Source: a virus
DNA: 28,865 bases
Strand: one strand, 5' to 3'
IMG/VR virus record: IMGVR_UViG_3300027156_000031
Location: 1-28,865 of that record
The notes below the pieces were generated by a model, which did not search any database, was not told where the DNA came from, and saw only the letters and a list, made by a program, of their open reading frames with translations. A program made the translations under genes and the position numbers. Positions 2,773-23,553 of this stretch are shown piece by piece; position 1 is the stretch's first letter, and the number at the start of each line of letters is the position of its first letter.

Positions 2773-3438
2773 CTAACGTGCGGAAACAAAGGTTATTGTG
2801 CCTATTGCCGAAGGTATTGATGGGTGAGCAAAAGGGCTAGTTTGAGCTACTTTATGTTCCATATATATCCCATCTACAACAGGTGAATCATCAGCCGCTT
2901 TGCCTGTTGCCCAGTATAATTGAATAACATCGTTAGCATTTAAAGTAAACATTACAAAGGATACTGCTAATGCATAACCAAAGACTCCTGCACTTTTACG
3001 AGCAGGGATAGTAAATTTACTAGTTGAACCTGGAAGATTAGTTCCATTAATGCGTAACCAAACATCTACATCATGTTGAGTATTGTCCGTATTAACATAT
3101 TGTAGACTATAATCTATTTTATAAACCCCTGCATATGTTGCTGTAGCAGCATTAGAAGCTAAAGTAAATCCACTTCCTGAATCTAAGGTGCTCCATTTAA
3201 CTATAGTAGGTGTGTTATCAGCTGTTGCATACTGGTCAGTTAAATCTGATGCACCTATATGAGGAAAGGTTAACGCTGAACCACCGTCAGGTATTACAAG
3301 CGCCCTAGTAAAGTTATCTATCTGTGAAAAGTATAAGCGTAATACGTTTGATATTTGATCTTGGTATTGTTGGCTATAATCAGTTGTAGCATTAGGTAAA
3401 CTTGGGGCTACAATAGGTGTAAGTTGTGCTTGTGCCAT
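2773..3438 (-). CDS. Fibre-like virion protein with C1q/TNF-type jelly-roll domain
   Basis: This 221-aa protein has a short N-terminal helical part (QQYQDQISNVLRLYFSQIDN) that could trimerise. It is followed by a beta-rich domain of about 140 residues. The segment ATYAGVYKIDYSLQYVNTDN, then VDVWLRINGTNLPGS, and later LNANDVIQLYWAT follows the strand pattern of C1q/TNF-like jelly rolls found at the tips of phage fibres. The ATG overlaps the stop of the 739-aa hub gene (TAATG), linking the two in one translation unit. An attachment or appendage protein fitted to the tail hub is the likely role. The jelly-roll call rests on pattern recognition and would need a structure prediction. Confidence 0.6.
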   Translation of the reverse strand: MAQAQLTPIVAPSLPNATTDYSQQYQDQISNVLRLYFSQIDNFTRALVIPDGGSALTFPHIGASDLTDQYATADNTPTIVKWSTLDSGSGFTLASNAATATYAGVYKIDYSLQYVNTDNTQHDVDVWLRINGTNLPGSTSKFTIPARKSAGVFGYALAVSFVMFTLNANDVIQLYWATGKAADDSPVVDGIYMEHKVAQTSPFAHPSIPSAIGTITFVSAR

Positions 3439-5657
3439 TATCTTTTGCCGTCTGGTTTAACATCAATACGAGGAATACCTAATTGCCACGCTACACCAAG
3501 ATCTGTTGATCTAATTTCAAATGACATTTGACGGGCTCTTAGTCTTGTATAAACTTGACCTGTAAATTTAGGAACAATATATTGCGTAATAGTTGAGTAA
3601 TTTTGTCCACTAGTCACTGTATCAACATCTGAAGGTTCTTGTGATGATCCAGAATTTTGACGGCCATACAATGTCATTGTAACGGAAGGTGCATTAACAC
3701 TTGAACCATTGAAATTGACATCAGGCAACATACGCCATACAAAACCAAGATGCTCGCCAGCTTCAATACCAAAATCAGATGATTGGATATAGGCTTCAAT
3801 AGGTTGTGGGCTACTTGTAGATACGTCATCATTTCCTACCTCATGGTATAAAAGTCTTCGGTTGTAGTCAGCGGCCACTGGGTTAGGTTGAATACCATAT
3901 TGTAACCAAGCAGTTCTTGCCATAGTACCATATGACCATACTTTGTCTACATAGTTATAAATAATATAACGGTCTACTGTAGTGCCAGCACTATTTTGAG
4001 TTACATAAAACCACCATACCTCATTGTATCCTTCATTAGATCCAGAGAAGATTTGGAATGCTTGGTCAACGTTAATATCTTCAAAAATAAATTGACGTAA
4101 TGAACACGGTAATGTTGAAACTACACCAGTGTATTGGTAGAACTTATCTTTACCCATCCAGTAGGTTACGTTATTCACTGTAACAGCTGCGTTAGGGGCA
4201 ATGATAGAAATATTATCCATCAATACTTGGAATGCCCATACATAAGGATAGCCAACATACTGCATTGAATAGAGGCAGGAATTAGTCCATATCAAAATTT
4301 CTTGACGGGTTGTAATGCCTGTTACAATAAAAGAACCATTAGCTAATGTAAATTCACCAGATTGATTTGTTGTTTCTGGAACCCATTGGTATGGATTACC
4401 TTGGTCAGACCATCTTACAATCATAGGATTAAATGCTGTATTAGGTGTTCCTACTTCATATGGATTGGATCCTAAACAAACTAAAAATTGCTCTGTAGCT
4501 GAGGTTAAAATTTGATTGGTTGTTTTTGGTACAAAAGTACCACTAAACCCTGCTGCTGTAGATAATGTAGATAAGTATGAACCACGAGTTGATACACCTC
4601 CAGAGTCTAACCAATAGAATATTGGGCCGCCACGAGGAGCATAAGCTAAGTTAGAGCCAAAGTTATCTTGAGACCAAAGTCTTAATTGTTGTGTAATACC
4701 AGATGTAAATCCAGTTCCCCAACCACGAGTAGCAGACACTGGTATTCTAACTACAACAGTTCCACCAAGGCCAGACGCTGTAGCATTAGCAGGATAACTA
4801 GCAGAGCCAAATACAGTTGATATTGTATATTTATTTGCATTGACTACAGTCACTTGGAACGCTTGTTCTAGTATAGTCTTTACAATACCTGAAACATTAT
4901 TTTGTACAGAGCTAAAATATATCCAGTTACCAGTTGTTAATCCATGACCAGTTTGATTAACTGACACTGTAGTACTTGTATTAATTGTATCAAATGGATT
5001 GGTTAAGGTAGTACCTGTAGTTGCAATAGCACCAGTCCACGGGCCAGCACCCCATCCAGTACCAATCGTTGCAATGTCATTACCAATAGGGTATTGAAAT
5101 GCTAGTGTAACCGTGCCACCACCACTTGCTGTAGACGAAGCGTTTGTTGCAGCTAAAATAGTAAATGTAGTTGTAGAAGGTACGGTATTAACAACGTATT
5201 CACCGCTAATCGTTAAACCACCTACAGCGGCTGTAGATGTTACTGTAACGTAATCACCAATTGCTGGATTGTAATTACCATCTGTAATAGTCACTACGTT
5301 AGATCCAGACACTGTAGCGAGTGGGCTTGCTGCTAATTGATTTGGAGGAGCTAAGGCTGTGCCGTCTGTTTGAACAATAGGAGTAATGTCATAGTAAATA
5401 CCACCAAAAAATATGTAGTATTTTTTACTTGTACCTAAAGATAAGTAGTTTGATAAGCCATCAGAATCAGTCCATGTCCATAAAGAACGTGCAATGCCGT
5501 CAAACTGATCTGTGTCTACTTGTACCCAGCCACCAATCTTTTCAGCTTGACCTGAACGGAAGCGGATCTTATCACCGTCATAGAAACCACCCTCATTGGA
5601 GTAGTCGGTTCCTTCACGGTTAATCCCAGCTCTATATGTTAATTTTTGTAATGGCAT
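3438..5657 (-). CDS. Large tail hub/stabilisation protein (P22 gp10-like)
   Basis: The product is 739 aa, the largest in the window. Its N-terminus carries the signature YSNEGGFYDGDKIRFRSG followed by EKIGGW, which I associate with the widespread podoviral tail hub or DNA-stabilisation proteins related to P22 gp10. The interior is beta-rich, with repeated Val/Thr/Ser strands and an NxVTITDGNYNPAIGDYVTV segment. Later blocks include MIVRWSDQGNPYQWVPE, TRQEILIWTNSCLYSMQYVG and KFYQYTGVVSTLPCSLRQF, typical of the propeller-like body of this family. The ATG overlaps the lysozyme stop (TAATG). It probably forms the lower tail ring or nozzle below the adaptors at 20-22 kb. Family call is good; the exact position in the tail is inferred. 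Confidence 0.7.
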   Translation of the reverse strand: MPLQKLTYRAGINREGTDYSNEGGFYDGDKIRFRSGQAEKIGGWVQVDTDQFDGIARSLWTWTDSDGLSNYLSLGTSKKYYIFFGGIYYDITPIVQTDGTALAPPNQLAASPLATVSGSNVVTITDGNYNPAIGDYVTVTSTAAVGGLTISGEYVVNTVPSTTTFTILAATNASSTASGGGTVTLAFQYPIGNDIATIGTGWGAGPWTGAIATTGTTLTNPFDTINTSTTVSVNQTGHGLTTGNWIYFSSVQNNVSGIVKTILEQAFQVTVVNANKYTISTVFGSASYPANATASGLGGTVVVRIPVSATRGWGTGFTSGITQQLRLWSQDNFGSNLAYAPRGGPIFYWLDSGGVSTRGSYLSTLSTAAGFSGTFVPKTTNQILTSATEQFLVCLGSNPYEVGTPNTAFNPMIVRWSDQGNPYQWVPETTNQSGEFTLANGSFIVTGITTRQEILIWTNSCLYSMQYVGYPYVWAFQVLMDNISIIAPNAAVTVNNVTYWMGKDKFYQYTGVVSTLPCSLRQFIFEDINVDQAFQIFSGSNEGYNEVWWFYVTQNSAGTTVDRYIIYNYVDKVWSYGTMARTAWLQYGIQPNPVAADYNRRLLYHEVGNDDVSTSSPQPIEAYIQSSDFGIEAGEHLGFVWRMLPDVNFNGSSVNAPSVTMTLYGRQNSGSSQEPSDVDTVTSGQNYSTITQYIVPKFTGQVYTRLRARQMSFEIRSTDLGVAWQLGIPRIDVKPDGKR

Positions 5658-6106
5658 TATTTACTTTCAAAGAGTGCTTTTTCATCTAATCTACGGATTT
5701 GTAAACCTCGTAGTATTTTACCACCTGCACGACAATACTTGACTAACGACTCCATAGCCGCCTTTTTATCGCCACGAAGCAACGCTTGACGGAGTGTTGA
5801 TCGCTGAAATGTACCAAGGCCAAGGTTAAAGGCAAAAGATACAAGGCAATCAAATTCACATTGTCTAAGAGGCACGTTAGGTAGCATCTTATGTATTCCA
5901 AGCTCAAAACGCCTAAGGTCGGATTTAAGAATTCCATCTATTTCATTGCTCGTAAAAGTGCGGTTCCATTCAGTTGGGAGTAACTTACCATCATTGATAA
6001 GATGGCCCACACCAACGGTCCATAACCCAGCAGGACATTTATAAGGCTTAGAGCGGATGCCTTCGTGATGCTTAATAAGAGCGATGCCAGCTTTTGATAC
6101 ATTCAC
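5657..6106 (-). CDS. Endolysin: GH24 (T4-type) lysozyme
   Basis: This 149-aa muramidase cuts the glycan strands of peptidoglycan at lysis. The catalytic block is visible at residues 13-35: HHEG with Glu15, then CPAGLWTVGVGH containing Cys24 and Thr30. Aligned to T4 lysozyme (Glu11, Asp20, Thr26) this is a Glu-Cys-Thr triad, a form frequent in phage lysozymes. The rest (FDCLVSFAFNLGLGTFQRST, then a Gly-Lys-rich GRxxR tail) follows the family. There is no signal or SAR anchor, so release needs a holin. The start is GTG at 6106, directly after the holin-like stop; no better in-frame start exists and the site upstream is weak, so translation is probably coupled. It is the last gene of the lysis cluster. 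Confidence 0.93.
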   Translation of the reverse strand: MNVSKAGIALIKHHEGIRSKPYKCPAGLWTVGVGHLINDGKLLPTEWNRTFTSNEIDGILKSDLRRFELGIHKMLPNVPLRQCEFDCLVSFAFNLGLGTFQRSTLRQALLRGDKKAAMESLVKYCRAGGKILRGLQIRRLDEKALFESK

Positions 6107-6592
6107 TTATTTCTTTTCCCAAGTTCTAGCACCAAAGTAGAATCCTATAATAGAGCCTACAATAGCCATTTCATCAGATGAGAATATAACATCCATAGAT
6201 TCACGACTAAACCCTACAGTATTTACAGCCCAAACAAAGCCAGCTATATCTACAAATAAAAGTAGTCCTACAAAAGTAAAAGCAACAATAGGACGAACGC
6301 TTGCGTTAAGAGTTCTAACCCATGGTGCTGCGTCATGTACAAGTTTTGCATCGTGTTCATAAAGTGCTTGACGTTCTTGTGCGAATGTTTCTGCATACGT
6401 ACCCTCCAATTCAATAGCTGCTATTTTTTCTTGTGATACAAAGCCTTTTTCAGCCATAAGTAAAGCTTGTTCATTTTGTAGTCTAGCCATTTCACGTTCA
6501 TGTGATTGATCTCCCTTTTGTTGGAAGAAGCCAAGGATACTTGGTAGACCTGCGGTTGCAAAACCTAAAATTGAACTTAAGATACTAAACAT
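6107..6592 (-). CDS. Putative holin with three membrane segments
   Basis: The 161-aa product has hydrophobic segments at about residues 3-23 (ILSSILGFATAGLPSILGFF), 101-123 (PIVAFTFVGLLLFVDIAGF) and 140-156 (EMAIVGSIIGFYFGAR). A charged helical middle (residues 25-90) is rich in Glu, Gln, Lys and Ala. The RPIVAFTF...IIGFYFGxRTxEK pattern resembles the three-TM holins described for gene-transfer agents and many phages. It would permeabilise the inner membrane and release the lysozyme encoded immediately downstream. The ATG overlaps the stop of the preceding TM/coiled-coil gene (TAATG). The holin call rests on topology and neighbours. Confidence 0.7.
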   Translation of the reverse strand: MFSILSSILGFATAGLPSILGFFQQKGDQSHEREMARLQNEQALLMAEKGFVSQEKIAAIELEGTYAETFAQERQALYEHDAKLVHDAAPWVRTLNASVRPIVAFTFVGLLLFVDIAGFVWAVNTVGFSRESMDVIFSSDEMAIVGSIIGFYFGARTWEKK

Positions 6593-9485: not shown

Positions 9486-10385
9486 TTATTGAGTATTATT
9501 TATATCTGTCCATGAAGTAGGTACATTGTTATTAATTTCAGTCCAAGATACTGAATTATCATTGTTTATAGATGCCCATGTAACAGCTTGGTCATCGTTT
9601 ATTTTAAACCATCCACGAGGGAATTGGGAGTCTAATAGTGCAAATGTTTCAATAATAGAGGCCTGGAATGCAGCTGTAACTGTAGGCGTATCTGCTAAAT
9701 TAACGTTTTCATCTAAAGATGCAATGTAATTTGCAATAACAGAGTTAGCATCATCTGAATTAAGATTCTCTGTAATCGTTAAGAAGAACATTTGAACAAT
9801 GGTTGAAATATCTGCCATTGTAATGTCTTCATTTATTGAAACTAAAAAGTTAGTTATAACTACATAAACATCTTCCATTGTCATATTTTCAGTAATAGAT
9901 GACTGGAATTGAGCTGTAATGCTTGTTGTATCAGCAAGGTCTACATTTTCTGTTTGTGACGCTATAAACTGAGCTGCTATAGATCTTATATCATCCATCG
10001 TAAACGGCTCTTCACGACTTTCTAAGGCCGCAAAGTATTGCACTGATGAATCATCTAAATTGCTATTCTCTGTAATACTTGATGCAAACTGAGCTTCTAT
10101 AGCTGGTGTATCGTTTAAAACTGAATCTTCTGTAATACTTTGTAAGAAATTAAATGTCTGAGCACTTTCATCATTCATTGCTACAAATTCATTAATAAGC
10201 CCAAAGAAGTCACCTGTTGTAGCATCAATATCATCCATGACAACATTTTCTGTAACTAACAAGTCAAACGCAGATATCTGGCTACTTGCATCAGCCATAA
10301 CAATATCTTCAGTTAAAGATAGTATGAACGAATTGCCGCCTAGTCCAGCAAATGTAGGTTGAGCAAAGGCAGCGTATCCAAACAT
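9486..10385 (-). CDS. Tandem-repeat virion protein (about eleven ~20-residue ITEN...D repeats)
   Basis: The 299-aa protein starts MFGYAAFAQPTFAGLGGNSF. Residues about 23-255 are built of about eleven repeats of roughly 20 residues with the consensus S-I-T-E-N-x-x-x-x-D-D/T-x-x-x-x-x-x-x-F-x-x. Examples are ITENSNLDDSSVQYFAALES, ITENMTMEDVYVVITNFLVS and LDENVNLADTPTVTAAFQAS. The final ~40 residues hold three W-x-x-I/D-I-N-N motifs (VTWASINND, VSWTEINNN, TSWTDINNT). It is strongly acidic. The regular spacing suggests an elongated repeat fold, perhaps a fibre stalk. It lies inside the adhesin block and its ATG overlaps the preceding stop (TAATG). I know of similar acidic repeats in phage fibre regions but cannot name a family. 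Confidence 0.65.
   Translation of the reverse strand: MFGYAAFAQPTFAGLGGNSFILSLTEDIVMADASSQISAFDLLVTENVVMDDIDATTGDFFGLINEFVAMNDESAQTFNFLQSITEDSVLNDTPAIEAQFASSITENSNLDDSSVQYFAALESREEPFTMDDIRSIAAQFIASQTENVDLADTTSITAQFQSSITENMTMEDVYVVITNFLVSINEDITMADISTIVQMFFLTITENLNSDDANSVIANYIASLDENVNLADTPTVTAAFQASIIETFALLDSQFPRGWFKINDDQAVTWASINNDNSVSWTEINNNVPTSWTDINNTQ
9620..10316 (-). repeat. Protein-level tandem repeats, ~60-base unit, about eleven copies
   Basis: Within the 299-aa gene about eleven degenerate units of roughly 60 bases encode the S-I-T-E-N-x4-D pattern. The DNA has diverged (forward strand shows varied forms such as TTTTCTGTAATACTTGATG and TTCTGTAATACTTTG), so it is an old, selected repeat. 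Two neighbouring copies near 10067 and 10127 still share TCTGTAATACTT exactly. Confidence 0.6.
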
Positions 10386-11437
10386 TATGCTGTATAAGTA
10401 CCAGAAGCGTTAAATTTGATAATTGTATTTGAGCCAGATGTTGTTATGGTTGGTGAACCTGTAGTTGTTCCAGAATAAGCTGATGTTGGTACACTAATAA
10501 TGACAACACCTGAACCACCAGCAGCTCCATTACCAGATGTATTTCCACCACCGCCTCCACCTGTGTTAGCAGTTCCTGCAGTGGGAGTAATACTTCTATT
10601 AGCATCCCCACCAGCTCCACCACCACCTGCACCACCAGCACCTACAGTAGTTGGATTTAGATATGCACTTCCGCCTCCACCTCCTGCATATGTAACTGAT
10701 GTACCTGTAATAGAACTTGCAGTTCCTGCACCACCATTACCTGATGATAAACCAGATGCACCTACAGCTGAAGCGCCACCGCCTCCACCACATCTGTATG
10801 TAGGGGAAGTATTTCCTAAACCACCAGCAAATCCTTGACCAGACGTTCCAGCTCCGCCAGTACCTACAACAGATGAATTTTCACCGCCACCACCGCCAGA
10901 TCCACCAGCTTCTCCGTTAAGCGCACTACTTCCAACACTAGAACCACCACCACCACCTCCACCTGTAGAGGTTATAGAGCTAAATACTGAATTACTTCCA
11001 TTAGCCCCATCTCCCGTGCCAACTGTACCTCCAGCACCGCCTGCTCCTACAGTAGCTGTATAAGTTGTTCCTGTAGTTAAAGTAAGTGTGCTTGTTAATA
11101 ACCCACCAGCACCGCCTCCACCGCCAAGACCACCACCATAACCACCACCAGCTCCACCAGCAACTACTAAATAAGATGCAGTGTAGGAATTTCCAGTAGT
11201 ACCAGCATTTACCCAACCGCCAATAGTATTGTAAATCTCCAGTTGACCTGTAGTCGTATTGTATCCTTGAGTTCCAGTAATAGGACTTGCTGGTCTTGTA
11301 GCAGTTGTCCATGTAGGATTATTTAATTGGCCTGTAATAGTAGGCGTAGTAATAGTAGGCGATGTACCTAGTACAACAGTTGATCCTGTTCCTGTAGTGG
11401 AAGTTAAAAGCGCTGGTGGTACCTGTGTTAATGCCAT
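10385..11437 (-). CDS. Glycine-rich fibre-tip/adhesin-like protein (copy A)
   Basis: The product is 350 aa. Residues about 41-75 carry the fibre head module WTTATRPASPITGTQGYNTT, then GQLEIYNTIGGW. From about residue 84 (YTASYLVVAGGAGGG) to about 310 the chain is Gly/Ser-rich with GGGG loops interrupted by short strands (TYTATVGAGGAGG, SVTYAGGGGG). The C-terminal ~40 residues (GVVIISVPTSAYSGTTTGSP, then NTIIKFNASGTYTA) match the C-termini of the two paralogues at 11447 and 13273. This layout of head, polyglycine core and conserved cap suits a receptor-binding tip with variable loops. Start ATG 11437 is preceded by AAGGATAAACC. It is co-translated with the repeat protein downstream. Confidence 0.75.
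   Translation of the reverse strand: MALTQVPPALLTSTTGTGSTVVLGTSPTITTPTITGQLNNPTWTTATRPASPITGTQGYNTTTGQLEIYNTIGGWVNAGTTGNSYTASYLVVAGGAGGGYGGGLGGGGGAGGLLTSTLTLTTGTTYTATVGAGGAGGTVGTGDGANGSNSVFSSITSTGGGGGGGSSVGSSALNGEAGGSGGGGGENSSVVGTGGAGTSGQGFAGGLGNTSPTYRCGGGGGASAVGASGLSSGNGGAGTASSITGTSVTYAGGGGGSAYLNPTTVGAGGAGGGGAGGDANRSITPTAGTANTGGGGGGNTSGNGAAGGSGVVIISVPTSAYSGTTTGSPTITTSGSNTIIKFNASGTYTA
10449..10465 (+). repeat. 17-base repeat shared by three Gly-rich adhesin genes (copy 1)
   Basis: GTTGGTGAACCTGTAGT (forward strand) near the C-terminal end of Gly-rich copy A also occurs exactly at 11511-11527 and 13337-13353. It encodes the TTGSP segment of the cap. Flanking codons differ, so it is a short conserved coding block that could serve as a recombination point. 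Confidence 0.6.
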
Positions 11438-11446
11438 GGTTTATCC

Positions 11447-12325
11447 TTATGCTGTGTATGTGCCTGAAGCGTTAAATTTAATAACTTTATAGCTACCATC
11501 AGTAGTTACTGTTGGTGAACCTGTAGTAGTCCCAGAATAATTTGCTGTAGGAACCCTTAATATAACTACACCTGAGCCACCAGCTCCATTGACATTAATT
11601 GGAGGATAACTTGTACCACCACCGCCACCTGTATTTGCCACACCAGGGTCTGCAGAAGAGTAGTAACTTGTTCCTCCACCGCCTAAACCCCCTGCTGTAG
11701 TTCTTGGGAAACGACTGTCAGGAGAGCCACCACCGCCTCCACCGCCATAATAAACAGCTGTGCCAGTAATAGATGATTGAAGACCGTTGCCACCAGTACC
11801 AGGAGTTGTACCAGAACCATTTGTCCCTGCAACGCCTGCACCGCCTCCGCCACCTCCAGCACCATAATCCCCTGCTGAACCGCCAGCATTACCACCTTTA
11901 AATCCTTGTCCTGATGTTCCAGCACCTCCAGTAGTTCCAGGTTCCCATGCTCCACCACCAGAACCGCCTGATGCATATCCAGTACCACCACCAATTGTTG
12001 TTACTGATAATCCAGTTCCAGAAAGGACTGAGTTATTACCATTTGCAGCTGAAGCACCGCCTGCTCCTACAGTAACTGTATATACTGAACCTATATTTAT
12101 AGTAACTGAAGAACTTGTTAATAAACCACCTGCTCCGCCACCACCACCAGATCCACCTGCAGCGCCACCAGCTACGACTAAATAATCTATATTATAGACT
12201 GGTAAAGGCCATGTTCCCGATTGGCTGGCTTGAAGTTGTTGAGTAACCGCAAAAACACCAACTGCAGTACTAGCAGTAGGAGCAGTATAAGTAGCCCTGA
12301 CAATTTTTGATGGGAATTTAGACAT
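11447..12325 (-). CDS. Glycine-rich adhesin-like protein (copy B), lacking the TRPASP head module
   Basis: The product is 292 aa. Unlike copies A and C it has no WTT-TRPASP module. It begins MSKFPSKIVRATYTAPTAST and enters the Gly-rich core at YNIDYLVVAGGAAGGSG (about residue 43). The core has the same alternation of GGGG loops with strands such as SVYTVTVGAGG and TAVYYGGGGGGG. The C-terminus (GVVILRVPTANYSGTTTGSP, then VIKFNASGTYTA) matches its paralogues closely. It sits only 2 bases after the preceding stop. Loss or replacement of the head module while the core and cap are kept suggests modular exchange. It may need another protein to attach to the tail. Confidence 0.72.
   Translation of the reverse strand: MSKFPSKIVRATYTAPTASTAVGVFAVTQQLQASQSGTWPLPVYNIDYLVVAGGAAGGSGGGGGAGGLLTSSSVTINIGSVYTVTVGAGGASAANGNNSVLSGTGLSVTTIGGGTGYASGGSGGGAWEPGTTGGAGTSGQGFKGGNAGGSAGDYGAGGGGGGAGVAGTNGSGTTPGTGGNGLQSSITGTAVYYGGGGGGGSPDSRFPRTTAGGLGGGGTSYYSSADPGVANTGGGGGTSYPPINVNGAGGSGVVILRVPTANYSGTTTGSPTVTTDGSYKVIKFNASGTYTA
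11511..11527 (+). repeat. 17-base repeat in Gly-rich adhesin genes (copy 2)
   Basis: Exact copy of the 17-base block at 10449, in the cap of Gly-rich copy B. Confidence 0.6.
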
Positions 12326-13272: not shown

Positions 13273-14283
13273 TTATGCGGTGTAAGAACCGCTTGCTGTA
13301 AATTTAATAATTGTGTTGCTTCCTGATGTTGTTATTGTTGGTGAACCTGTAGTTGTGCCTGAATAATTAGCCGTAGGTACAGAAAGAATAACTATACCAG
13401 AACCACCAGCGCCACCAGGATAATTTCCTACACTTCCAGCTCCTGAACCACCACCACCTGTGCCAGTATTAGCTGCCCCAGCAGTTCCTGCTGTACCGCC
13501 TCCTCCTTGTCCAGGATATGTACCACCACTTCCACCTAAAGCGTATGTAACACTAGAGCCAGTAATAGATGAAGCTACCCCTGCTCCCCCTGCTCCTCCT
13601 GTAGAACCTGTACCAACAGAACCTACAGCACCAGCTCCACCACCACCACCGCCACCATCACGTCCACTAGTAACGCCTGCACCAGCAAAACCTTGATTAG
13701 CTGTTCCTGAACCTCCAGCATCTGGTATTTGTGACCTAACAGCTCCACCAGAGCCGCCAGAACCTGGTCCTACAGTGCTACCTTGACCAAAACCACCACC
13801 TGTGGATGTAACTGTCGTAATACCTGTGCCTGATAAAGATGAATTTGAACCTGCTGTTCCATTATTTTCACCTGCACCAGCACCACCAGACCCGCCAGCT
13901 CCTACTGTAACTGTATAAATTGTTCCAAAAGTTAAAGACAATGCACTTTCTGCACTTCCACCTCCGCCTGACGTTCCTGCTGATGTTCTAAAACCACCAG
14001 CTCCACCACCACCTGCACCACCAGCATTACCATTACGAGAACCTCCACCACCAGCACCAGCAATTACTAAATAAGATGCTGTATAAGAATTACCTGTTGT
14101 ACCAGCAATCACCCAGCCACCAGCAGTATTATAAATCTCTAATTGACCAGTAGTCGTGTTATAACCAAGTTGTCCAGTCACAGGGCTTGCAGGGCGTGTA
14201 CCTGTAGTCCAAGTAGCCACAGCTAATCCTTTAGAACTATCTAGTGTACTTGATCCTGATGCTCCAGAAAGTATGAGTGCCAT
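13273..14283 (-). CDS. Glycine-rich fibre-tip/adhesin-like protein (copy C)
   Basis: The product is 336 aa. The head module at about residues 24-60 (WTTGTRPASPVTGQLGYNTT, then GQLEIYNTAGGW) and the following GTTGNSYTASYLVIAGAGGG are nearly the same as copy A. The core (about 74-295) is a Gly-rich domain with GGGG loops, IYTVTVGAGGSGG strands and a GGGGGGGAGAVG run. The cap (GIVILSVPTANYSGTTTGSP, then NTIIKFTASGSYTA) is shared with copies A and B. The ATG at 14283 overlaps the stop of the 97-aa gene (TAATG). Copies A and C share both ends while their cores differ, as expected for receptor-binding variants. Host attachment is the likely role. Confidence 0.75.
   Translation of the reverse strand: MALILSGASGSSTLDSSKGLAVATWTTGTRPASPVTGQLGYNTTTGQLEIYNTAGGWVIAGTTGNSYTASYLVIAGAGGGGSRNGNAGGAGGGGAGGFRTSAGTSGGGGSAESALSLTFGTIYTVTVGAGGSGGAGAGENNGTAGSNSSLSGTGITTVTSTGGGFGQGSTVGPGSGGSGGAVRSQIPDAGGSGTANQGFAGAGVTSGRDGGGGGGGAGAVGSVGTGSTGGAGGAGVASSITGSSVTYALGGSGGTYPGQGGGGTAGTAGAANTGTGGGGSGAGSVGNYPGGAGGSGIVILSVPTANYSGTTTGSPTITTSGSNTIIKFTASGSYTA
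13337..13353 (+). repeat. 17-base repeat in Gly-rich adhesin genes (copy 3)
   Basis: Exact copy of the 17-base block in the cap of Gly-rich copy C. Copies 1 and 3 agree for 20 bases. Confidence 0.6.
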
Positions 14284-18645: not shown

Positions 18646-19071
18646 TTAACTTATTCTTAAAATGGCACTTGTTGAATTTGCCGTTGGAAACTGGACTGTA
18701 AAACTGGTGGTAGCTGTCTTATCAGATCCAAAATTTAATACAAAAACCGCTGCATTTGTAGTGCTATTATAAACTAAAGCACCCCTACAAGTAAAACTTG
18801 CTGGAGTCAATGTAACGTTAGCAAAGGACAAATAAGCTGTATTATTATCTGTATCTGAAAGTATGGTCGTAGGGGTTAAAACTACCCCTCCAGCCGTGTA
18901 TCCTGAGCCTGTAACCTCATTAGTTGTGGTATAGACTGTGGTAGCATCATCTAAGTCTGCTAATGCGGTATAAAGGGCTATTTTGTATGTATATGGAGTA
19001 CCTGTATTAAAGTTCTCAAGACCTTTAAGCATATTAGATTTAAATACTGTGCAAGCGGTTTGGGTTATCAT
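18646..19071 (-). CDS. Conserved small beta-rich phage virion protein
   Basis: The 141-aa protein starts MITQTACTVFKSNMLKGLEN with a short helix, then TPYTYKIALYTALADLDDAT, EVTGSGYTAGGVVLTPTTIL, TAYLSFANVTLTPASFTCRG and TNAAVFVLNFGSDKTATTSF. The pattern of a helix, an ALYTALADL segment and a beta domain with GYTAGG is, in my experience, widely conserved in phage genomes next to fibre or neck genes. The ATG overlaps the stop of the HNH gene (ATGA), so translation is probably coupled to it. Likely a virion component; precise role unknown. Confidence 0.6.
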   Translation of the reverse strand: MITQTACTVFKSNMLKGLENFNTGTPYTYKIALYTALADLDDATTVYTTTNEVTGSGYTAGGVVLTPTTILSDTDNNTAYLSFANVTLTPASFTCRGALVYNSTTNAAVFVLNFGSDKTATTSFTVQFPTANSTSAILRIS

Positions 19072-19610
19072 GGAGATACCTCATATCTATTATGCTTAGA
19101 TAAGTTATGTTTTTCTGGTATAACCTGTAAATTTTCAATCATATGTAGTCCTGATACTATTTTGCCTTGTAATGGAATGATATGGTCAACATGCCATTTA
19201 AATCCAAACATTTTAGTCCTTAAAGCCGCTAATTCATAGGCTTCTTTTATAAGCCATAGATCATCTTTTGTAAGCCATTTAGGTGTTCTATTTAATAAAC
19301 TTGCTTGTCTTTTACGAACATAATATGCTTGTAATGGTTTAGTTCTTTGTCTATATTCTTTCATAGTATTTTTACGTTTTTCTGGATTATTTAATACATA
19401 TTCCATACTTCTTGTAGCTATGGTTTCACGGTTTTTGGCTTTATATTTACGACCATAATTACGTGATGCTTCTAAATTATCCTGCCACTTAGCTTTCCTA
19501 TATTCAGATAAACATGTTTTACATTTTGTTTCTTTACCGTCTTTATATAAAGAATGGTTTGGATACTCATTTAATGGTTTATCTTTTAAACAAATTCTAC
19601 AAGATCTCAT
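19068..19610 (-). CDS. Free-standing HNH endonuclease with CxxC zinc fingers
   Basis: The 180-aa protein has an N-terminal zinc motif, Cys4-x2-Cys7 and Cys30-x2-Cys33, and a long basic helical linker (about residues 35-115). The HNH core starts at WHVDHIIPLQGK (His140, Asp142, His143), with Asn160 in MIENLQVIP and EKHNLSKHN (His168, Asn169) at the end. These are the metal and catalytic positions of HNH nucleases. It is inserted between two structural genes with a TAATG junction at its start and an ATGA overlap at its end, typical of homing endonucleases that colonise phage operons. It likely nicks or cuts phages lacking the gene. It could also serve packaging, but the terminase is not nearby. 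Confidence 0.85.
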   Translation of the reverse strand: MRSCRICLKDKPLNEYPNHSLYKDGKETKCKTCLSEYRKAKWQDNLEASRNYGRKYKAKNRETIATRSMEYVLNNPEKRKNTMKEYRQRTKPLQAYYVRKRQASLLNRTPKWLTKDDLWLIKEAYELAALRTKMFGFKWHVDHIIPLQGKIVSGLHMIENLQVIPEKHNLSKHNRYEVSP

Positions 19611-21507: not shown

Positions 21508-22455
21508 TTACCTTATATAAGACATATTTCTAGGCACAAATCTAATTGATGCCTTTTCTCTGTCCTCTTGAGATGCTAGATCCCATTGTTTTTCATAATC
21601 TGATTGTAAGAATGCTACTCTGTTTGGATCTACGGCAGGTGACTTAATAGATAAATAATAAGCCAATCCAGCTACCATACATGGTAAGAATCTAAATGGA
21701 ATATCATTTACAGTAACACCAGTACCAGCATCTTGCACTCTACGCATTCTCCAGTAAACAAATACATACTGATTGCCAGGGGAATTAGGAGTTGGCCATA
21801 CATTAACGCTTGGCAAGTTTTGTATTGTAATATAGTTAAATGGACTTGCTGTAGCTACATGAACTGCTGCAGTTGTATTGTTTTGACCACGAGCACAATT
21901 TAATAATTGGTTATTAGCGTTATCTACATTTGGATAGTAAATAGTTTCATTATCAATCTTAATAAATCCAGCTGATGCAATATTAGACACATCGCTTAAT
22001 GTAATGGTTGTAGCTGTAGCGCTGATAGAAGCAGATAAATATACAGTGCTTTCATTAGACATACCAGACTGCCTATTAATCCATACTTGGATAGGACGAC
22101 CATTGGCTAATTTGTTAGGAATTGTAGAATATGTATCTTCTGATATACGATTAATGTTAATGTCTTGTTGATTAGGACCACCGTTACCAGTACGAGTAAT
22201 CATACTTAATAGATCAATAGTATCTACTGGAAGAGCATAAGTAGGCTGCCCTGTAGCCATAGTAATTTGACCTTCTTCAATAGTCCAAAGGTTAATACCA
22301 CGATTAGCCCACTCAATCGTTAATAGATTAAGGCTTCGTCTAGCTGTTCTAAAATCATAACCAGTTCTTAATTCTAAACCACAACGCTCAAATGCCTCTT
22401 CAATGAGGTCATTCATGTTTAGGTTAAATAAACTGGTTCCTGTAGTTTCGGCCAT
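21508..22455 (-). CDS. Head-tail adaptor/neck protein (P22 gp4-like) with an inserted domain
   Basis: The 315-aa protein starts with the helical block NMNDLIEEAFERCGLELRTG, then FRTARRSLNLLTIEWANRGI and LWTIEEGQITMATGQPTYAL, which I associate with P22 gp4-like tail accessory/adaptor proteins that seal the portal. The C-terminal part (FVYWRMRRVQDAGTG, PFRFLPCMVAGLAYYLSIKS, FLQSDYEKQWDLASQEDREK) returns to helices. Residues about 137-206 (TTITLSDVSNIASAGFIKID, ETIYYPNV, LLNCARGQNNTTAAVHVAT) form an inserted beta domain of a type seen in many phage tail proteins (TTITL...G.I.ID.E.I.Y...L..C.RG...T.AA.H). The ATG at 22455 is only 6 bases after the 21-aa micro-ORF. Good family-level call. Confidence 0.72.
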   Translation of the reverse strand: MAETTGTSLFNLNMNDLIEEAFERCGLELRTGYDFRTARRSLNLLTIEWANRGINLWTIEEGQITMATGQPTYALPVDTIDLLSMITRTGNGGPNQQDININRISEDTYSTIPNKLANGRPIQVWINRQSGMSNESTVYLSASISATATTITLSDVSNIASAGFIKIDNETIYYPNVDNANNQLLNCARGQNNTTAAVHVATASPFNYITIQNLPSVNVWPTPNSPGNQYVFVYWRMRRVQDAGTGVTVNDIPFRFLPCMVAGLAYYLSIKSPAVDPNRVAFLQSDYEKQWDLASQEDREKASIRFVPRNMSYIR

Positions 22456-22461
22456 GATTAA

Positions 22462-22527
22462 TTACTTTTGCAGAATACGCAAATTTTTGATTTTCTTGAT
22501 AAGCTTTTTCACAAATTTCTTAATCAT
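22462..22527 (-). CDS. 21-aa cationic amphipathic micro-ORF
   Basis: An ATG at 22527 opens a 21-codon frame ending TAA at 22462. The peptide begins MIKKFVKKLIKKIKNL and ends RILQK: nine Lys/Arg, no acidic residue, with Ile/Phe/Val/Leu at positions 2, 5, 6, 9, 10, 13, 16, 18 and 19. On a helical wheel these segregate from the charged residues, giving a clear amphipathic helix. AAAGGA lies 4 bases before the ATG, slightly close but usable. It fills the gap between the stop at 22536 and the next ATG at 22455, as expected for a gene in this compact operon. It could be a membrane-active lysis peptide, a DNA-binding tail, or a remnant: IKKFVK also occurs at the start of the 94-aa protein at 22784. 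Confidence 0.5.
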   Translation of the reverse strand: MIKKFVKKLIKKIKNLRILQK

Positions 22528-22535
22528 ATAATCCT

Positions 22536-22784
22536 TTATTTTTTAGCTGTTTTAGCAGCTTGTTTGAATTGTTTTGCTGTAGGTGCGCCTTTAGAACCAG
22601 GCTTACGCATCTTTTCACCAGAACCTTGAGCTATACGTGCCTTCTTAGCGTGAATATTGGCATAGAGGCCGACCTTGCCACCTTTAGCAAATTGAGTAAA
22701 GTCTGTATTATCTTTACGGGCTTTCTTTTTGCCCTTAGGCATTTTAGTTGGGGCTATATCGCCCATACCACGAGAGGCTCTCAT
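22536..22784 (-). CDS. 82-aa basic protein of the KGG cluster
   Basis: The protein begins MRASRGMGDIAPTKMPKGKK, has an AKGGKVGLYANIHAKKARIA block and ends with GSGEKMRKPGSKGAPTAKQF and a Lys/Ala-rich helix. The LYANIHAKxxRIxxGSGEKMRKPGSKGAPT motif is, in my experience, very widely conserved among marine and freshwater phages, as a free small protein or as the end of a larger one. Function is unknown. The ATG overlaps the preceding stop (TAATG). It is strongly basic throughout, as are its neighbours. Confidence 0.65.
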   Translation of the reverse strand: MRASRGMGDIAPTKMPKGKKKARKDNTDFTQFAKGGKVGLYANIHAKKARIAQGSGEKMRKPGSKGAPTAKQFKQAAKTAKK

Positions 22785-23068
22785 TAGCAGATTTTTCCTT
22801 TAGTTTTACCACGAATAGCACAACCGTCTGCACGAGCTGATGCTGAACCACCTTTAGCCATACATTTAGTTTTGCCACCACGTTTGTAATTGTCATCAAA
22901 CTTTTTAACTTCTGTACTTGTATCATACATAGCTTTATTTTTACGATAAGACTCAGGATCTTTCATTTCTTCAACCTTCATTTGCTTTTCTTCAATCTTA
23001 ACTTTTTTATCATCAGAAGGAGGAGTGATATCCTTAACAAATTTCTTGATTTTTTCAATAATAGCCAT
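22784..23068 (-). CDS. 94-aa protein with Lys-rich N-terminus and Cys-containing GKTKGKIC tail
   Basis: The N-terminal half (AIIEKIKKFVKDITPPSDDK, then KVKIEEKQMKVEEMKD) is charged and helical. The C-terminal half is basic: RGGKTKCMAKGGSASARADG followed by CAIRGKTKGKIC. Three cysteines lie in this tail. The last ~30 residues align with the end of the next protein (23078), sharing KCMA-x-GG-x-AS, A(D/N)G and RGKTKGKIC, so the two genes look like paralogues at their C-termini. The ATG at 23068 follows AAGGAATAATC. Function unknown; the conserved Cys/Lys/Gly tail may bind nucleic acid, metal or the capsid interior. Confidence 0.6.
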   Translation of the reverse strand: MAIIEKIKKFVKDITPPSDDKKVKIEEKQMKVEEMKDPESYRKNKAMYDTSTEVKKFDDNYKRGGKTKCMAKGGSASARADGCAIRGKTKGKIC

Positions 23069-23077
23069 GATTATTCC

Positions 23078-23545
23078 TTAGCAAATTTTGCCTTTTGTTT
23101 TACCACGAACAGCAATGCCATTAGCTTTTGCTAATTGAGATGCTTTGCCACCAGCAGCCATACATTTACCACCCATTTTCATTTTATGCATTGATGATTC
23201 ATGACCTTTTACTTCTTTTTTAGCAATCATTTTTGCATCTGATTTTGTTGCACATCCTTTAGCCATACCGCCTTTTTTCATGTAGCCCATTTTATTTCTA
23301 ACCTCCGTTGGTAATTTTGATATTCCAGGATTCTTACTTTTGTCTACAGCTTTAAGTTTCCCGCCTTTTTTCATAGCTGGCATGCCCTGTGGTGCGGCCA
23401 TAGCTGCCATAGGATTAACTGCTGGCATTACTGGGGCTGCTGATCTTGGCATTACAGGTGCTTCTGGTCTAAAAGCTAGTGCTGGTCGTTTCTTTGCACG
23501 TCCCATCATCATAGCCATTCTTGGGTTTGTTGATTTCTTTTTCAT
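23078..23545 (-). CDS. 155-aa Met/Lys/Gly-rich protein of the KGG cluster
   Basis: I place the start at ATG 23545 because AAGGA lies 5 bases upstream of it; the ATG at 23551 is too close to that site. The protein begins MKKKSTNPRMAMMMGRAKKR, then a Met/Pro/Ala-rich segment (PVMPRSAAPVMPAVNPMAAM) and a series of KKGG motifs (MPAMKKGGKL, MGYMKKGGMAKG, MKMGGKCMAAGG). It ends ANGIAVRGKTKGKIC. Methionine content is unusually high. Its C-terminal ~30 residues match the preceding 94-aa protein. It lacks hydrophobic segments. A minor capsid-interior or nucleic-acid-binding protein is possible; no known domain recognised. Confidence 0.6.
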   Translation of the reverse strand: MKKKSTNPRMAMMMGRAKKRPALAFRPEAPVMPRSAAPVMPAVNPMAAMAAPQGMPAMKKGGKLKAVDKSKNPGISKLPTEVRNKMGYMKKGGMAKGCATKSDAKMIAKKEVKGHESSMHKMKMGGKCMAAGGKASQLAKANGIAVRGKTKGKIC

Positions 23546-23553
23546 AATCATCC

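Follow-up and report, generated by a model that had tools for sequence, protein, structure and literature searches.

Can an open reading frame of 21 codons, lying in the narrow gap between two longer phage genes, be a gene in its own right, and if so, where did it come from and what might its product do? The question is raised by a micro-ORF in the 28.9-kb virus record analyzed here (the window, 28,865 nt), whose completeness is unstated and which we treated as partial. Of the 80 nt that separate the genes for an 82-aa basic protein and a 315-aa adaptor-like protein, the micro-ORF takes up 66 (Table 1). Small basic proteins are encoded upstream of it, with the major head protein farther up. 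Rechecking the translation bore out the composition given in the preliminary description: the peptide has nine Lys/Arg and no Asp/Glu, for a net charge of +9, and hydrophobic residues at positions 2, 5, 6, 9, 10, 13, 16, 18, and 19. The Shine-Dalgarno sequence (SD) AAAGGA, reported earlier with no strand given, is indeed present on the minus strand, 6 nt before the ATG, and its anti-SD pairing of -5.4 kcal/mol is within the usual range for the window's genes.

Table 1. Positions of the micro-ORF and of other features in the window
Feature	Position	Strand	Remark
Micro-ORF, 21 aa, MIKKFVKKLIKKIKNLRILQK followed by a stop	22462..22527	-	Apparent miniaturized derivative of the WIQKAIKKPG family
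Shine-Dalgarno AAAGGA of the micro-ORF	22534..22539	-	Overlaps the upstream gene's stop, TAA at 22536-22538
Last codons of the micro-ORF plus adaptor leader	22456..22482	-	Aligns both with the spacer of relatives that lack the ORF and, at the locus of the full-length gene, with its 3' end
82-aa basic protein, upstream	22536..22784	-	phrog_16028; core YANIHAKKARIAQGSGEKMRKPGSKGAPT
315-aa head-tail adaptor-like protein, downstream	21508..22455	-	Pfam PF24175 SU10_adaptor; start 6 nt past the micro-ORF stop
Small protein adjoining the 82-aa gene	22784-23068	-	C-terminal module KCMAKGGSASARADGCAIRGKTKGKIC
Next small protein	23078-23551	-	C-terminal module KCMAAGGKASQLAKANGIAVRGKTKGKIC
First phrog_2295-matching protein	10385-11437	-
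Second phrog_2295-matching protein	11447-12325	-
Third phrog_2295-matching protein	13273-14283	-
Endolysin	5657-6106
Holin-like protein	6107-6592		Weak resemblance to a three-TM holin

Some of the other genes in the window have features of their own. Dozens of cyanophages and roseophages encode the core of the 82-aa protein at 80-87% identity across ~30 residues, and pelagiphages have a weaker match; the phages that carry it belong to quite different lineages. The two small proteins listed next to it have in common a C-terminal module ending RGKTKGKIC, and neither had a match in PHROGs or Pfam. Elsewhere, three neighboring proteins all match the same part of phrog_2295, which suggests a tandem duplication.

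To ask how readily such an ORF arises by composition, we shuffled the 80-nt gap while preserving dinucleotides. Of the shuffles, 2.1% contained a closed ORF reaching 20 aa, 0.055% one in which K/R also numbered 8 or more while D/E were absent, and 0.005% one that had an SD besides; the criteria of length, K/R, D/E, and SD were set only after the ORF was known. Homologues were sought in three ways: the adaptor protein as a query returned 80 loci, several with the same 21-codon ORF; a degenerate DNA pattern returned 20 stretches; and a second pattern added the diverged variants L192 and L204. These two were the only real ones among the loose matches of the C-terminal DNA pattern (L187-L206), most of which were chance frames and were rejected. 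A homologue is present in at least 20 IMG/VR contigs, a count given as a minimum because some contigs are represented by more than one locus id, with overlapping sequence, and it has 21 residues every time. A scan of bacterial and archaeal genomes for the peptide's DNA pattern gave no match. The homologues comprise 10 distinct nucleotide variants of 21 codons each. In all inspected contigs the flanks are the same, a small basic protein on one side and an SU10-adaptor-like protein on the other, and the SD is retained across all variants as AAAGG, AAGGA, or AGGGG.

Most differences between the variants are silent or exchange similar residues (ATT/ATC, AAA/AAG, Leu/Ile, Lys/Gln). Counted on a tree of the flanking sequence, 22 synonymous and 13 nonsynonymous changes separate the ten variants, compared to 25.2 ± 2.6 nonsynonymous changes expected in a neutral simulation, in which 13 or fewer occurred in 0 of 20,000 runs. 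The pN/pS ratio of the micro-ORF was 0.138, and those of the upstream and downstream genes in the same contigs were 0.168 and 0.121. Every replacement retains the hydrophobic or polar class of the residue (P of about 0.026), and codons 16-18 are invariant. Given the synonymous excess, the neighbor-like pN/pS, and the class-keeping replacements, the micro-ORF behaves as a gene. It is a genuine gene under purifying selection on its amino acid sequence, not a chance AT-rich ORF, so that a phage ORF of 21 codons, shorter than gene callers usually accept, can be a gene under selection. The earlier proposal of an unannotated, conserved cationic micropeptide gene therefore holds, including its expectation of a conserved pattern with synonymous change. 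The counterevidence named earlier, relatives without an intact ORF, does exist in part, in one nested sister lineage (L010-L012, L184, and L185) that has lost it; this loss implies that the gene is dispensable.

Selection on an ORF could also reflect the act of translation, with the micro-ORF serving mainly as a translated leader for the adaptor gene and the peptide being incidental. The start signals of the window variant are consistent with this: a strong SD precedes the micro-ORF, the SD of the adaptor gene is nearly absent (-0.4 kcal/mol), and stop and start are close together. Of the near-SD-less genes, two more lie behind another gene (3438-5657 and 19068-19610), and each of these begins where it overlaps the end of the gene in front. 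In addition, the start of the window variant's micro-ORF can pair with the adaptor start, in a fold with a z score of only -0.37. However, a mere coupler should tolerate residue change, which is at odds with a pN/pS of 0.14, and the adaptor gene is still preceded by a weak AGG in the other variants, so coupling is not a general requirement. Because of the amino acid selection on the micro-ORF, coupling alone is not a sufficient explanation, and we consider it unlikely as the whole account.

At the RNA level, 22519-22528 (TATGATTAA, at the micro-ORF start) is complementary to 22453-22462 (TTAATCATG, in the adaptor start region) on the minus strand of the window variant, a complementarity absent from most other variants. 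Rfam held nothing credible for an RNA element at the locus, consensus folding gave a single 3'-end hairpin of 6 bp with no covariation, and the window segment folded no better than shuffles; on these results an RNA explanation was dropped. Since codons 16-18 are invariant, a separate constraint may act on the hairpin region, part of which persists in the relatives that lack the ORF. In those relatives (L010-L012, L184, and L185), the adaptor gene is immediately preceded by CGCAAA..TTTGCG and TTTGC-N7-GCAAA, two short hairpins that exclude each other.

Where the gene came from is indicated by sister phages, in which its place is occupied by a gene of 58 to 60 residues, a member of what we call the WIQKAIKKPG family (for example, MAEKWIQKAIKKPGSLRKSLNVKAGEKIPAKKLASAAKKSGKIGQRARLAQTLKKLGK at L013). 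The first 17 residues of the micro-ORF align with this gene ungapped from the start codon, and the best profile match lies at offset 0. Over these residues, most variants share 8 or 9 identities with L013, and L204 shares 7. The score of the window peptide against the family profile was reached by 0 of 2,000 full shuffles and by 8 of 2,000 pattern-preserving shuffles, and that of the L004 variant by 0 of 2,000 in both cases; for L204, the most diverged variant, 403 of 2,000 pattern-preserving shuffles reached it. The DNA alignment has a single internal gap of ~105 nt, with both ends of the full gene matching; the stop codon is read in a different frame. About a third of the parent is retained. 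The micro-ORF has F5, L9, and K14 in place of the parent's invariant W5, A9, and G14 and is without I28-P29 and the C-terminal GQRARLA segment; the peptide had no significant family match, and a PHROGs search with the peptide alone returned nothing. Judged by these alignments, the micro-ORF is a derivative of the WIQKAIKKPG family rather than a full member, and it appears to have arisen by internal deletion of the 58- to 60-residue gene. A selected micropeptide of de novo origin, resembling the family through convergent Lys/Ile richness, would fit an alignment of only 17 residues and the lack of significance of L204 under the strict null, but it is made distinctly unlikely by the alignment from the start codon, the shared operon position, the DNA match at both ends of the gap, and the nested phylogeny described below.

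In the adaptor tree, the micro-ORF rows and L013 form a clade with 100/100 support within a larger group carrying the full gene, and rows of the ORF-less spacer type branch from within the micro-ORF rows. DNA homology between spacer and micro-ORF is clear for L012 and L004 (0/500) and weak for other pairs. Recombination at the locus is evident: in L008 and L009, WIQ and the upstream gene form a fusion, and L168 has a window-type ORF, yet its adaptor falls among the spacer rows. Because of this recombination, the order of events is one that we infer, and it would give a traceable route for micropeptides in compact operons, from full gene through internal deletion to micro-gene and then to loss. 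An internal deletion, and a nested lineage in which the ORF is gone and just the 3' end remains, might equally mark a decaying relic, that is, a truncated, nonfunctional pseudogene being lost. This we regard as very unlikely, as purifying selection is on a par with that of the neighbors, length is constant, and the SD has been kept through substitutions.

The function of the parent bears on that of the micro-ORF. The WIQKAIKKPG family is common in uncultivated phages, with at least 578 matching stretches, and its proteins occur either by themselves or as fusions with other basic proteins. In PHROGs it weakly matches phrog_15706 and phrog_20603, families of unknown function, and a PDB search with the family found nothing. 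The start of the PF25632 profile (Fusello_VP2_Capsid) resembles the N terminus of 39 of 44 members (best E value, 2.2e-4); the first member tested, L013, scored 19.8 bits against a Pfam cutoff of 27. The same search of the window's record, micro-ORF included, gave no match. An AlphaFold model of the parent has helices at 3-11, 14-19, 30-37, and 42-55 and is poor (pLDDT of 62). SSV1 VP2 is described as a DNA-binding protein that is associated with the virion, is dispensable, and has homologues among bacterial viruses unrelated to SSV1 (PMC4158269, PMC9608457). We treat the VP2 likeness as a lead, not as membership; it suggests that the parent family is probably DNA binding and a possible VP2-like virion component.

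The reading that we favor, with a probability of roughly 0.5, is that the micro-ORF is functional, that it arose when a small basic phage gene of 58 to 60 aa, resembling the SSV1 VP2 N terminus, lost its interior, and that it encodes a nucleic-acid-binding peptide and is coupled to the adaptor gene. The micro-ORF would be translated from its own SD alongside the structural genes. In its Lys-rich helix, Leu/Ile-Lys would replace the Pro-Gly break of the parent, and the helix may bind nucleic acid or an acidic partner in head assembly. Translation could also hand ribosomes to the adaptor gene, a second and compatible role. A further version, which we hold tentatively, is that internal deletion cut a widespread small basic virion-type protein down to a minimal helix of 21 residues, either nucleic-acid binding or membrane directed, which was re-molded, its Pro-Gly break gone, for a new role.

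The preliminary description had offered a lysis or nucleic-acid-binding micropeptide. The nucleic-acid half fits the parent family; the lysis half is not supported. The amphipathic helix on which it drew has the hydrophobic positions claimed, but "textbook" was an overstatement: the helical-moment calculation proposed earlier gave a maximal 18-residue Eisenberg moment of 0.55, compared to 0.36 for same-residue shuffles (P = 0.11), and the mean hydrophobicity is negative. Although the charge of +9, a hydrophobic/polar pattern that survives replacements, the continuous helix possible without the parent's Pro-Gly, and the lack of a recognized o-spanin gene within this partial record would suit a new, membrane-active, disruptin-like lysis peptide acting on the outer membrane, this is the least probable of the alternatives, given the ordinary moment, a location among the head-neck genes, with 16 kb between it and the endolysin/holin-like cassette (5657-6592), and apparent ancestry in a structural-block protein of a probable DNA-binding family.

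Set against known systems, the micro-ORF peptide resembles the disruptins by description: that of coliphage phiKT is a short amphipathic antimicrobial helix (PMC12819732), and the micro-ORF peptide is likewise short, cationic, and possibly amphipathic and helical, but it lies outside the lysis cassette and has another origin. SSV1 VP2 and PF25632 are like the parent family at the N terminus, below the cutoff, and differ from the micro-ORF itself, which has no VP2 match. The WIQKAIKKPG proteins share with it operon position, basic character, and the first 17 residues; they differ in their length of 58 to 60 aa, their invariant residues, and a second basic half, whereas the micro-ORF makes do with 21 aa.
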